Source: Streptomyces sp. NRRL F-2664 (GTDB lineage Bacteria > Actinomycetota > Actinomycetes > Streptomycetales > Streptomycetaceae). Taken from it: 64,000 nt of DNA. Below, in pieces: positions 43,866 through 47,286 of the stretch. The translations under genes were made by a program, and so were the position numbers. Position 1 is the first letter of the stretch, and each line of letters opens with the position of its first letter. The DNA lies in assembly GCF_000719345.1 (NCBI RefSeq), contig NZ_JOFX01000004.1, forward strand, positions 124,001 to 188,000. The letters run 5' to 3'. The notes beneath the pieces were generated by a model, which did not search any database, was not told the origin of the DNA, and saw nothing but the letters and a program-made list of their open reading frames with translations.

Positions 43866-44064
43866 CGTGTTGCCGGGGCGACCGGGCGGGCGGGGCGGAT
43901 CGGTGGAGCGGGAGACCGGGGGCCATTGGTGTCGCATTGATAGTCCGATAAGTGGACTTATCTGCGAGGGTCGCGCGGCGGCGCGGCGGTGGTTTCCACG
44001 CTACCGATGTGGCCGGAGAGGCCACCCCACCACCGTGGTTCGATCGGTTCCGAGAAGGAGTGGT

Positions 44065-44985
44065 ATGCGCCCCGAGAACAGGACCGGGTCGGCGCTCGGC
44101 CCGCTGCCGAAGAGCAGTTGGCGCAGGGCCGGCACGCTGGCATCGCTCGCCCTGGTGATGACGGGAGTGGCCGTCGGGCCCGCCGTCGCACTGGCGCAGA
44201 ACGTACAGACCGCCGAGCGGTTCGGCGCGGCGGCCCCGAGCGGCGGTGACGCCTGCGAACCGGGGTCCGATCATGAGCCCGACCGGCGGCCGGAGTTCGA
44301 CCCGGACCGGGGACCGGACGAGGGCCCGTGGTCGCCGCCCCTCATGGGCCACCCCCATGGTGACGACCGGTGCGAGCCGGGCCGACCCGGACCGACGGGC
44401 CCCACCGGCCCGAGGGGCCCGATGGGAGCCACGGGCGCGGACGGTGCCGATGGCGCGGACGGTGCGACGGGCGCTACGGGTGCCACCGGCGCGGACGGTG
44501 CCACCGGCGCCACCGGGGCTACGGGTGCTGATGGCGCGGACGGTGCGACCGGACCCACGGGTGCGACCGGGGCCACCGGCCCCACCGGGGCTACGGGTGC
44601 CGATGGCGCGGACGGTGCGACCGGACCCACGGGTGCGACCGGGGCCCCGGGTGCCACGGGCGCGACCGGTGCCTCGGGGGCCACCGGTCCTTGCAGCGCC
44701 ATCGACAGCACCGCGCCGTCCAACACCGTGTCGTTCAACGCCGTCCTCACGAACGGCATCGCCTACGCCGGCCGGGCGGCCTCCCCCGGCGGCCTGCCCG
44801 TCTGGCAGGACCTCACCGACGCGGACAACCCGGACTTCCCGTTCGGCAGGGCCTGCGGCATCTCGATCGTCGCCCAGGGCCCGAACTCGTACATCAAGGT
44901 GCTGACGACGGACAAAGGGTCTACCAGACGCACGGCGACACCAACGGCGCAAACTTCGTCTGGGACGAGCCGTGGGTCGAACTGA
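44065..44985 (+). CDS. Secreted collagen-like protein, C-terminus frameshifted
   Basis: A 306-residue product in the annotated frame. A signal peptide is visible at about residues 20-44 ([20 protein letters not shown]). An acidic/proline region follows. Then 35 uninterrupted Gly-X-Y triplets span residues 106-210, mostly GAT, GAD and GPT. The C-terminal globular domain starts at [15 protein letters not shown] and resembles that of the second collagen-like gene at 46495. In the annotated frame it ends in unrelated sequence ([14 protein letters not shown]). In the -1 frame the homologous [20 protein letters not shown] continues to a stop at 45066-45068, so a 1-bp or 4-bp deletion near 44908-44914 is likely. 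GAGAAGGAG lies just upstream of the ATG. Function unknown; the collagenous repeat suggests a triple-helical surface protein. Confidence 0.85.
44518..44653. repeat. 72-bp tandem repeat within the collagen-like gene
   Basis: Two near-identical units, 72 bp apart (starting 44518 and 44590), each encoding 24 residues of Gly-X-Y triplets including [17 protein letters not shown]. The unit length is a multiple of 9, so copy-number change preserves the triplet phase. Confidence 0.8.
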
Positions 44986-45083
44986 CCCCCGGTCCGACCG
45001 GAACCCTCCGGGGCAAGGACCTCAAGCAGGACTCGCTGCGCAGAACTCCCCTCGACCGCGCCCGCTGACCGCCCTCGCGGCGA

Positions 45084-45123
45084 GGGGCCGGACGCATCCC
45101 GTGCTGTGGATGCGTCCGGCCCC
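45084..45123 (+). terminator. Terminator downstream of the first collagen-like gene
   Basis: Perfect 16-bp GC-rich inverted repeat (45084-45099 with 45108-45123) around an 8-nt loop. It begins 15 bp after the -1-frame stop at 45068 but 98 bp after the annotated stop, which supports the frameshifted reading. It may also serve the convergent glycosyltransferase. Confidence 0.85.
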
Positions 45124-45146
45124 CGGCCGGGGTGCGAGCGGGGGCC

Positions 45147-46259
45147 TCAGGCCACCACCTGGTATTCCGGCCCCAGCTTGGCCAGGGCGAACGCGCGGTT
45201 CTCGACGACCCGTTCGCGCTGGCTCTCCGGAAGGCCGCCCTCCCGCAGGAGGCGGTCGCAGCACTGGAGCGACTCCTCGTACGCGCCGACCCAGTAGGCG
45301 GCGACCGCGAGCTCGTCGAGTGCGCGCCACGCGTACCAGTCGAACTCCACGAACAGGATGTCGTCGGGGCGCGGGATCTGCGCCGCCTGGCGGGCGAACA
45401 GGTACGCGAGCGGGAAACGGCCTTCGAGACGGCACAGGCGCGCGAGGTCGCCGAGTGCCTCGGCCCGCCCGGGGCGGCTCTCATGGGCGCGGAGATAGCG
45501 GTCCATCACCTCGGCCGGCGGGCGCTTGAGGCCCGCCGCGAGCCGCGCCGCGTACAGCCGGGCGCAGAAGACCTCCTCGGCGAAGCCGCCCATGTCCGCC
45601 CGGCGGTCGTAGGCGGCCAGGGACTTCTCCGGCTCACCCGCGTCACGCCAGCTCTGTGCGAGATAGAAGGCATAGCGGGCGTTGTCCGGTTCTTCGGCCA
45701 GCCCCTTTTCGAGGATCCCGGCATCGCGGAGGTACTTCTCCCGGTCGCTCCCGTCGCCCTTGCGGGCTCCGCCCCCGACGACGCGGATGTGGAATCCCTC
45801 GACCACTCCCCGGGTGAAAGGCGCTTCGCAGTCGAGGTACTCGTGCAGCACGCCGACGTATTTCCAGGGCAGGCGGGTGGAGACGAGGGCGGGACGCCAG
45901 TGGATGACCGGCCGGTGGTGGACCGCGACGCCGTACGAATCGAGAGTCAGCTCCGGCATGACGAAACCGGGGTCGACCTCGATCACGTCGTCCGCATCGA
46001 TGAACAGCAGGTAGTCGGCGCTGGAGCGCGCCAGTTCGATGGCCTCGCTGCGGCTGCCGTCGAATCCCTTCCAGGAGCGTTCGTACAGGACTCCGGGAAT
46101 ATCACGGAAGAACTCGCGGATGATCTCCTGGGTGCCGTCCGTCGACCCGGTGTCCACGATCACCCAGGTGTCGATCAAAGGGCGTACGGAGGCGAGACAG
46201 CGCCTGATCACCGCGGCCTCGTTCTTCACGATCATGTTCAGGCAGATTTTTGCTTTCAC
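45147..46259 (-). CDS. Family-2 glycosyltransferase with C-terminal TPR-like region
   Basis: A 370-residue GT2 enzyme. The GT-A fold starts at the N-terminus with CLNMIVKNEAAVIRRCLASV, then VIVDTGSTDGTQE and the nucleotide-sugar/metal motif DADD at residues 88-91. The C-terminal half has tetratricopeptide-like helices (NARYAFYLAQSWRDAGEPEKSLAAY, ALGDLARLCRLEGRFPLAYLFARQ). TPR-bearing GT2 enzymes frequently glycosylate proteins or peptides, e.g. SunS, and GT2 genes also accompany collagen-like BclA proteins in other bacteria. It lies between the two collagen-like genes on the opposite strand; that they are its substrates is inference. GTG 46259 is chosen as the frame's conserved start. Confidence 0.85.
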   Translation of the reverse strand: MKAKICLNMIVKNEAAVIRRCLASVRPLIDTWVIVDTGSTDGTQEIIREFFRDIPGVLYERSWKGFDGSRSEAIELARSSADYLLFIDADDVIEVDPGFVMPELTLDSYGVAVHHRPVIHWRPALVSTRLPWKYVGVLHEYLDCEAPFTRGVVEGFHIRVVGGGARKGDGSDREKYLRDAGILEKGLAEEPDNARYAFYLAQSWRDAGEPEKSLAAYDRRADMGGFAEEVFCARLYAARLAAGLKRPPAEVMDRYLRAHESRPGRAEALGDLARLCRLEGRFPLAYLFARQAAQIPRPDDILFVEFDWYAWRALDELAVAAYWVGAYEESLQCCDRLLREGGLPESQRERVVENRAFALAKLGPEYQVVA

Positions 46260-46494
46260 GGATCCCGTCCACGGTGGTGGTGAAGTCGATCGTGAGGCGA
46301 CCGTAGGGACCGGGTCGGGGGGGTGCAAGGAAGCCACGGGGAGAGCCGCCACCTGGGCCCTCTTGATGGTCCGATGAGATGACTGCTCAGCGAGGCGGTT
46401 CAGCGTGTTCCTGCTCGATGCCGACGATGCATGAGGCGGCCCGTCCGGGCCGATCGCACATCGTTCGATCCGGTTTTCAGAAGGAGCGGCGCAT

Positions 46495-47286
46495 ATGAGC
46501 CCCGTGAACAGGACCAGGTCATCCCTCGGCCCGGTGGCCCGGCGGAGTGCTGTGGTGAGGGGAGGCGCGCTGGCCTCCCTCGCCCTGGTGATGGCGGGCA
46601 TCGCCAGTCCCGCGTTCGCCACCGCCCAGGGTGTCCAGACGGCCGAGACGGTCCGGTCTGCGAGCCCCACCGGCGGAGGTGACTGCACGACGAAGAAGCG
46701 CGCGAACCACGATCCGGCAGCGACGCAAGCCCAGGCCGGCCCACGCGGCGGCGACGACTGCCAGGGCCAGCGGGGCCCGACGGGCCCCCGGGGCCCGCGC
46801 GGCCCGCAGGGCGAGGACGGCCAGGACGGCGCCACCGGTCCGACGGGCCCCACCGGCCCGAGCCTCTGCCTCGACATCGACGCCGTGCGGGACAACGCCG
46901 ACCGCGAGTTCAAGGCGGTCATCCCCGGTGACGGCAACACCTACGCCGGCGTCCGTGAGCTGTCGGCCGGCGGCGCGACGGTGGGCCCGTGGATCTGGTA
47001 CGACCTGACCACCAACCCCATGGGCAACTACCCGGCCGGCGCGTGCGGCGTCGCCATCAGCCACCAGGCCAACCGGCTGGCGGTCGAGGTGGTGACGCAG
47101 ACGGGGCAGATCTGGGAGACCTTCTGCACCGTCAACCCGGGCACCCCCGACACGCTGACCTGCAACGGCGTGTGGACCCTCGATGTGCCCCAGCCCGACC
47201 CGAACGACCCGGACCTGGGCCGCGCGGCCGACGCCCCGCCGCTCCGCCCGATGGACCCCAACCACCTGCCCAAGACGCTCAAGTAG
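46495..47286 (+). CDS. Secreted collagen-like protein, paralogue of the 44065 gene
   Basis: A 263-residue product. A signal peptide lies at about residues 24-43 ([20 protein letters not shown]). The collagen-like block is shorter here: 11 Gly-X-Y triplets at residues 91-123 ([20 protein letters not shown]). The C-terminal domain runs from LCLDIDAVRDNADREFKAV to the end and contains cysteines; it aligns with the domain of the 44065 gene (ACGVAISHQANRLAVEVVTQ versus [20 protein letters not shown]). The N-terminal coding sequence and the upstream region also match the first gene closely, so the pair arose by duplication. AGAAGGAG lies about 10 nt before the ATG. Confidence 0.85.
   Translation: MSPVNRTRSSLGPVARRSAVVRGGALASLALVMAGIASPAFATAQGVQTAETVRSASPTGGGDCTTKKRANHDPAATQAQAGPRGGDDCQGQRGPTGPRGPRGPQGEDGQDGATGPTGPTGPSLCLDIDAVRDNADREFKAVIPGDGNTYAGVRELSAGGATVGPWIWYDLTTNPMGNYPAGACGVAISHQANRLAVEVVTQTGQIWETFCTVNPGTPDTLTCNGVWTLDVPQPDPNDPDLGRAADAPPLRPMDPNHLPKTLK

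Follow-up and report, generated by a model that had tools for sequence, protein, structure and literature searches.

A Streptomyces locus pairing a TPR-containing family 2 glycosyltransferase with secreted collagen-like proteins

How bacterial collagens are stabilized and assembled is only partly known. According to the available part of PMC8968730, they mostly lack proline hydroxylation and favor threonine at the Y position of their Gly-X-Y (GXY) triplets. The closest described system is that of Clostridioides difficile, in which, as described in the available part of PMC7157674, the glycosyltransferase (GT) SgtA transfers β-O-linked N-acetylglucosamine (GlcNAc) onto threonines of BclA3 repeat peptides in vitro, with serine also being accepted; the enzyme has 358 aa, a GT-A domain, four C-terminal tetratricopeptide repeats (TPRs), and a requirement for metal (Mn2+). 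In Bacillus, the accessible text of a preprint (PMC11952670) mentions one nearby glycosyltransferase gene, and among animals the Riftia collagen carries galactosylated threonines, its high glycosylation seeming to raise thermal stability (PMC10141479, available part). Here, a 64,000-nucleotide stretch of Streptomyces sp. NRRL F-2664 (contig NZ_JOFX01000004.1, positions 124,001 to 188,000; hereafter the window) was analyzed, in which a TPR-containing GT of family 2 (GT2) lies between two genes for secreted collagen-like proteins, designated A and C. The locus is proposed to be a streptomycete version of the SgtA-BclA system, with a probability of about 0.83: an SgtA-type O-glycosyltransferase would add a sugar to Y-position threonines before export, giving rise to a stabilized and coated secreted trimer.

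Association of the glycosyltransferase with threonine-rich collagen-like genes

The initial annotation treated the three genes as a self-contained trio, an idea that would have had little left if the GT never co-occurred with collagen-like genes elsewhere. A search for the trio across Streptomyces clearly showed otherwise, since collagen-like genes both co-occurred with and adjoined the GT. Among 101 Streptomyces genomes searched with the GT (E 1e-20) and the gene-C family (E 1e-5), the former was found in 28, the latter in 26, and both in 25, the gene-C family being present in 25 of the 28 GT-positive genomes versus 1 of the 73 GT-negative ones (Fisher p 2.5e-19, uncorrected for kinship). The GT occurred on its own in G016, G025, and G080, and G093 displayed the C-terminal domain without the repeat and no GT match. 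At the level of the locus, 24 of 30 GTs had a GXY gene with a threonine fraction at Y (Y-Thr) of at least 0.15 no more than 5 kb away, including the GT of G080, whose neighbor is a GPT-repeat protein of different end (L069), and 22 of 30 had one with Y-Thr of at least 0.33. In the stretches of about 20 kb around these 30 loci, all 27 open reading frames (ORFs) with Y-Thr of at least 0.30 were located within 3.1 kb of the GT.

In a second set, composed of 36 of 40 further GT-positive Streptomyces genomes (all except G110, G221, G226, and G249) and four other actinobacteria, 28 of 40 loci had an ORF with Y-Thr of at least 0.30 no farther than 5 kb from the GT (26/36 in Streptomyces and 2/4 in the others), and a single such ORF lay farther away. 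Altogether, the GT was identified in 68 of 295 Streptomyces genomes and in 9 of 396 sampled actinobacterial genomes, four of these outside Streptomyces. These results indicate a strong functional link between the GT and the collagen-like genes. The trio as first drawn was right in that these genes belong together and too narrow in its extent, the usual unit consisting of a GT and either one or two collagen-like genes, arranged in several ways. Separately, when 51 genomes from the other genera of Streptomycetaceae were searched, 4 had the gene-C family. In G046 (L094, G046:C21), an interrupted GT lay beside a gene that retains the signal-type start and the C-terminal domain but has no repeat, in what looks like joint decay of both genes.

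The threonine content of the repeats followed this linkage. Y-Thr reached at least 0.33 in 25 of the 29 proteins encoded at GT loci (median 0.70), in 3 of 19 unlinked proteins of GT-positive genomes (median 0.10; L076, L079, and L081, with the GT elsewhere in the genome), and in 1 of 33 secreted GXY proteins of GT-negative genomes (median 0.00), with Mann-Whitney p values of 1e-9 for linked versus GT-negative and 8e-6 for linked versus unlinked in GT-positive genomes, uncorrected for kinship; medians and p values alike are to be read bearing in mind that false-looking frames (L165, L185 twice, L190, and L215 on the plus strand) remained in the table and added zeros to the control groups. A natural control was provided by seven proteins that have this family's C-terminal domain but are not linked to the GT (L070-L075 and L078), whose repeats were mostly of the GPKGDRG- or KGE-type and whose Y-Thr ranged from 0.00 to 0.12. 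The eighth unlinked protein with this domain, L076, was threonine-rich (0.59), in a genome that carries the GT elsewhere.

Chance or antisense frames were considered as a source of such repeats and set aside. Because GPA/GPT repeats yield false opposite-strand GXY frames in high-GC DNA (L061 and L069, for example), frames entered the comparison only if they had a start codon and, upstream of the repeat, a hydrophobic stretch. This filter also removed genuine proteins in some cases (L069 and L073, absent from the table). Under a stricter filter, Y-Thr in GT-negative genomes ranged from 0.00 to 0.29, but L188, described below, was missed. Since PF01391 at E 1e-8 catches only part of the GAT-type proteins, a search with gene A at E 1e-6 was added. 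The comparison covered all listed places in GT-negative genomes but G036:C1:55718 and part of the unlinked places in GT-positive ones; in the 73 GT-negative genomes, threonine-rich collagens were not found at this search depth, except for L188. A further class of secreted GXY-like proteins was noticed in GT-negative Streptomyces (L161, L166, L172, L176, L182, L186, L189, L191, L192, L194, and L198), with linkers of the GNPGNP, GDPGTP, or GTPGTP type, zero threonine in Y and, in several cases, an LAxTG-type tail.

The association was not confined to Streptomyces. When GTDB genomes were scanned with the GT profile, the best 80 of 524 confirmed relatives, chosen by similarity, were taken, and 79 loci were analyzed (34 Streptomyces and 45 others); since the Streptomyces members overlap with the genomes of the sets above (L219 and L084, for example, are one contig), the locus sets were not added together. 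A threonine-rich collagen-like gene was found nearby in 33 of the 45 non-Streptomyces loci, at a median gap of 102 bp and with Y-Thr of 0.33-1.00. It was placed upstream in 15, downstream in 7, convergent in 8, divergent in 2, and in an overlapping frame in 1. By organism name, the 33 belong to seven phyla (Pseudomonadota, Myxococcota, Acidobacteriota, Planctomycetota, Verrucomicrobiota, Chlamydiota, and Actinomycetota). When sixteen partner proteins were compared by eye, their N- and C-terminal parts were mostly unlike, close kin sharing some, and the GXT repeat was the common feature.

Mobile elements presented a similar picture, with a threonine-rich collagen adjoining the GT in 6 of 10 plasmid or phage loci examined (of 22 matches). 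A 16 kb Peribacillus plasmid carried an annotated collagen-like gene, an exosporium protein, and an annotated glycosyltransferase, followed by the matched GT stretch. In a Mesorhizobium ciceri plasmid (L302:4998-7796), the GT (tblastn, 97% of the query) was fused to Anp1 and GT25 domains, the latter being the family of animal collagen galactosyltransferases, and a collagen-like protein encoded 1.5 kb away has an unbroken run of 99 triplets and Y-Thr of 0.98. The Tunturiibacter phage Tunturi_5 (L305) carries a GT relative, and at a distance of about 3.8 kb a tail-fibre gene in which short runs of GAT occur.

A tree of 72 GTs (30 from Streptomyces and 42 of the 45 others, with L275, L288, and L290 left out), built by a quick method and midpoint-rooted for drawing only, separated two Streptomyces clades, each forming one side of a starred branch: that of the window (11 rows), which grouped with other phyla and not with the second Streptomyces clade, and the second itself (19 rows). 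Both clades pair with the same collagen family.

Fold of the glycosyltransferase and proposed mechanism

The GT2 assignment was confirmed by Pfam (56.9 bits against a cut-off of 23.3). The TPR-like C-terminus proposed at the outset scored below the cut-offs of the TPR sequence models, and was borne out by an AlphaFold2 model and Foldseek. The model, built from 30 sequences (mean predicted local distance difference test score 90.7; predicted template modelling score 0.80), presents a GT-A-like domain followed, from residue 172, by ten helices forming a TPR-like superhelix, and the DxD aspartates D88 and D90 were invariant in the 30 sequences. The best fold matches were SunS and ThuS (Foldseek E 4e-15 to 2e-13), followed by the TPR domains of OGT and designed TPR proteins, which matched the helical part, with RmlT and TarS among the lower matches. 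When the GT profile was compared with PDB sequences, GmaR came first (22ao, E 4.6e-19), then SunS, and then designed TPR proteins and OGT, these through the TPR part. Membership of the SunS S-glycosyltransferase family TIGR04195 was rejected (44 bits against a cut-off of 350). The family start, ICLCMIVKNE, may be set beside the SgtA cloning primer, which reads MITISLCMIV in the available part of PMC7157674, SgtA being known here from its description and this primer.

Since no signal peptide was seen in the GT by eye, the enzyme is presumably cytoplasmic. In the mechanism proposed, its GT-A domain would move one sugar from a nucleotide donor, by analogy with SgtA likely GlcNAc, to the hydroxyls of threonine, and perhaps serine, at Y of Gly-X-Thr, while the TPR superhelix would grip the extended, still unfolded collagen-like chain. 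Because the products of genes A and C have signal-type sequences and the GT has none, we infer that modification would precede export; the modified chains would then leave through their signal peptides and fold as trimers outside the cell. The cysteines that flank the repeat, which are conserved, together with the all-beta C-terminal domain, would bring three chains into register and hold them together, and the sugar on threonine would replace the stabilizing and hydrating role of hydroxyproline in animal collagen.

Of 66 Streptomyces loci, 8 (L085, L087, L089, L099, L340, L341, L344, and L346), all with a threonine-rich collagen gene, also have a PMT_2-type membrane mannosyltransferase-like gene close to the GT. 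It was placed about 230 bp or less from the GT in seven of them and 2.8 kb away in L341, the type having been Pfam-tested in three. Where such a gene is present, a second sugar step may come after the GT; the same locus search did not find one in the window.

Taken more broadly, the TPR-GT2 family may comprise dedicated, pan-bacterial collagen O-glycosyltransferases, for which threonine at Y would largely be the acceptor and its sugar the bacterial counterpart of hydroxyproline, so that collagens devoid of the enzyme must rely on charged triplets of the KGD/KGE type. The Streptomyces collagen family would then have become linked with two GT lineages that parted long ago, and its C-terminal domain may trimerise, three two-blade units making a six-blade propeller from which the triple helix is nucleated. 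This combined proposal is tentative, and we place it somewhat below an even chance.

Alternative explanations

Several observations weigh against the SgtA-like reading. Six of the 30 first-set loci had no threonine-bearing collagen neighbor, and in G016 and G025 a threonine-rich collagen was not found in the searches made. Among the 34 Streptomyces loci of the GTDB set, a threonine-rich gene was within 6 kb in only 18, and in L243, L247, L249, L251, and L252 the GXY genes 1-5 kb from the GT were threonine-poor and rich in Q, K, or N. Outside Streptomyces, 12 of the 45 loci were devoid of a threonine-rich neighbor (L265, L268, L269, L271, L273, L275, L278, L280, L285, L286, L291, and L294), among them five Holophagaceae and the sole Hydrogenedentota and Cyanobacteriota loci, with L269 and L278, which are near contig ends, scored as misses. 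On plasmids of Citrobacter (L303, 34% identity) and Acinetobacter (L307, 28% identity), more distant GT relatives lay directly behind an autotransporter gene, which bears a lone GATGPTGPY ahead of the barrel, and a YadA-type gene, respectively, genes in which a collagen run is missing; the same enzyme class possibly acts on other substrates there. As regards composition, the short gene C repeat has only four threonines at Y, L061 and L093 are GPA-rich (Y-Thr 0.16 and 0.24), and the GT-negative L188 encodes a secreted GST-repeat protein with Y-Thr of 0.95, in which the repeat serves as a linker and the tail is wall-sorting-like. Finally, a cytoplasmic enzyme and a Sec-type substrate would demand glycosylation before export, and the whole case is built from sequence and a structural model.

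Among the alternatives, the one that survives best, albeit unlikely, is that the GT modifies the collagen-like proteins away from the Y-threonines, on threonine or serine of the C-terminal domain or tail, or on cysteine as SunS does. SunS-type enzymes modify cysteine, the PDB titles of the SunS/ThuS matches say S-glycosyltransferase, and cysteines are found beside the repeat; the few threonines in the gene C repeat and the GPA-rich and GPQ-rich neighbors would also fit such a site. However, the C-terminal parts mostly vary between phyla while GXT is constant, and the repeats are threonine-poor in 7 of the 8 unlinked proteins that share the C-terminal domain of genes A and C. Moreover, SgtA itself acts on threonine of the repeat (PMC7157674, available part).

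It is somewhat less probable that the GT builds or decorates a cell-envelope polysaccharide, the collagen-like neighbors having a related surface role without being its substrates. Many GT2 enzymes are polysaccharide enzymes, RmlT and TarS, seen among the lower fold matches, are wall teichoic acid enzymes, and some GT loci have no collagen gene. Nevertheless, no polysaccharide operon was seen in the window at about 40.4-51.1 kb, the TPR part and the nearest folds belong to protein or peptide glycosyltransferases, and what the partners have in common is the GXT repeat, whose threonine content follows linkage. The least probable alternative, that threonine-rich repeats are merely a compositional habit (a water network) and the linkage a product of horizontal cassette transfer, draws on the existence of plasmid copies and on threonine being the predominant Y residue of bacterial collagens generally (PMC8968730, available part), but is discouraged by the mostly threonine-poor repeats of Streptomyces collagens that are unlinked or in GT-negative genomes, and by layouts and partner ends that vary among loci, which a single cassette would not yield.

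Features of the window and comparison with described systems

The three ORFs were confirmed at the coordinates and strands first given, with the GT on the opposite strand between genes A and C (Table 1).

Table 1. Coordinates of the features of the locus (positions in the window).
Feature	Position	Strand	Basis or remark
TTGATNGTCCGAT motif	43937..43949	+	128 bp upstream of gene A
Gene A, secreted collagen-like protein	44065..44985	+	Extent of the initial annotation, frame breaks near 44915; ORF list, Pfam, relatives L084/L076
Gly-X-Y run of gene A	44380..44694	+	35 triplets, Y-Thr 60%, last triplet GPC
C-terminal domain of gene A	44695..45068	+	In gene frame to ~44915, conserved rest in frame of ORF 44691-45068
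TPR-containing GT2 glycosyltransferase	45147..46259	-	370 aa, GTG start
C-terminal TPR-like helices of GT	45174..45746	-	Residues 172-362
GT-A-like catalytic domain	45750..46259	-	DTGSxDGT and DxD; D88, D90 invariant in 30 sequences
Intergenic region	46260..46494		GT and gene C diverge from here
Second TTGATNGTCCGAT motif	46363..46375	+	132 bp upstream of gene C
Gene C, secreted collagen-like protein	46495..47286	+	263 aa
Gly-X-Y run of gene C	46765..46863	+	11 triplets, Y-Thr 36%
C-terminal domain and tail of gene C	46864..47283	+	All-beta in model, no Pfam family

Each collagen-like gene encodes one uninterrupted Gly-X-Y run of the length originally counted, 35 triplets in gene A, mostly GAT, and 11 in gene C. 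The Pfam Collagen model PF01391 scored 63 bits for gene A against a cut-off of 27.2, and 23.3 bits for gene C, just below that cut-off despite its 11 perfect triplets. Judged by eye, both proteins begin with a basic N-terminus followed by a hydrophobic stretch of signal-peptide type, in agreement with the initial annotation, and an LGP[LV] motif was found in both. In one respect that annotation needed correction, as its gene A runs across a break in the frame near 44915. Before the break, the product matches the family C-terminal domain, and the conserved continuation corresponds to ORF 44691-45068. Because this continuation is in the other frame and a single frame encodes the intact domain in L084 and L076, the last residues of gene A as annotated, to 44985, are probably not native; gene A may be broken, or the frame change may be an error of the draft assembly (672 contigs).

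The C-terminal domain was not assigned to a known family, genes A and C giving no Pfam match at E 0.1, neither to the C-terminal domain of BclA nor to any other. A PDB sequence search up to E 10 returned zero matches, and the best Foldseek hit of its model had an E of 0.047. The fold of RSL-type two-blade propeller lectins was considered for the domain; an internal two-blade repeat was not supported by sequence, the profile comparison giving a probability of 0.9% and 1 of 20 column shuffles scoring higher.

Upstream of the genes, the motif TTGATNGTCCGAT was derived from the two window sites. When up to 3 mismatches were allowed, it occurred in 9 of 26 upstream regions, the two source sites among them, compared with 1.2 for shuffled sequences; it is possibly a shared regulatory site. 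A developmental promoter was sought with consensus sequences. The WhiG-like TAAA-N15-GCCGATAA occurred in 0 of 26 upstream regions and this idea was dropped, the shorter GCCGATAA occurred in 4 of 26 (shuffled mean 2.0), and a BldN-type consensus in 10 of 26, below the 12.2 of shuffles. Thus, these scans give no support to spore-specific expression.

The surrounding genes at about 40.4-51.1 kb encode ThiC, a YibE/F-like protein, one unassigned protein, and a phosphoesterase, by Pfam, as well as a LacI-type regulator recognized by eye. On a different contig from the GT, the same genome harbors a further secreted collagen-like protein (L108; G000:C29:48997-49512), of KGD/KGE type and with Y-Thr of 0.02.

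The view that no streptomycete equivalent had been described remained in place after full-text literature searches, in which the streptomycete family, the cysteine-bracketed repeat, the C-terminal domain, and the cross-phylum pairing were not found in print, although earlier reports may exist, including in subscription papers. The relevant literature returned consisted of the SgtA paper, a prokaryotic collagen review, and the Bacillus preprint. SgtA/BclA3 is an already described precedent, to which the streptomycete version would add a class of secreted collagen-like proteins that is apparently not in print. The interest would be wider if the cross-phylum rule were true: were one enzyme family to mark glycosylated collagens, substrates could be predicted from genomes, the role of the threonine sugar could be tested by deletion of a single gene, and co-expression with the matching GT would offer a route to glycosylated collagen materials. 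The enzyme-collagen pairing across bacterial groups may account for the ability of bacteria to make collagen without the animal chemistry.

Regarding the known systems, the likeness to SunS drawn at the outset is upheld by fold, SunS/ThuS (PDB 7msn, 7msp, and 7msk) being nearest, with template modelling scores of 0.54-0.66 by either length. For 7msp, the fit is 3.4-3.5 Å over 282-290 columns but 13-14 Å over the whole chain, which means that the two domains sit differently. In contrast to this fold similarity, identity with the GT is only 14-17%, and the SunS/ThuS substrate is a cysteine of a small bacteriocin. GmaR of Listeria (PDB 22ao and 7x9r), which through 22ao heads the sequence matches to the GT profile, is a flagellin glycosyltransferase with a substrate other than collagen and, by PDB title, an antirepressor as well. 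The Riftia collagen is an animal collagen and serves as an analogy only for the effect of a sugar on threonine. The BclA and F-BclA proteins of the Bacillus cereus group are likewise collagen-like surface proteins, BclA being O-glycosylated, but they are spore proteins with a C1q/TNF-like C-terminal domain (PMC11952670, available part), whereas the domain in the window has no Pfam match.

The comparison with BclA made in the initial annotation is best sustained by C. difficile, where SgtA, a GT-A plus TPR enzyme encoded beside bclA3, glycosylates threonine of collagen repeats in vitro. By the description of SgtA in the available part of PMC7157674, the GT of the window shares the class of about 360 aa, the N-terminal GT-A (GT2) domain, the C-terminal TPRs, and the DxD metal site, and in both systems the GT gene adjoins a Gly-X-Thr collagen-like gene. 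The differences lie in the partners and in their arrangement: a Firmicute spore protein there and two proteins with N-terminal signal-type sequences here, which, unlike BclA3, have another C-terminal domain and a cysteine-bracketed repeat, mostly GAT in gene A, and a gene order that, unlike that of sgtA and bclA3, is divergent or convergent.

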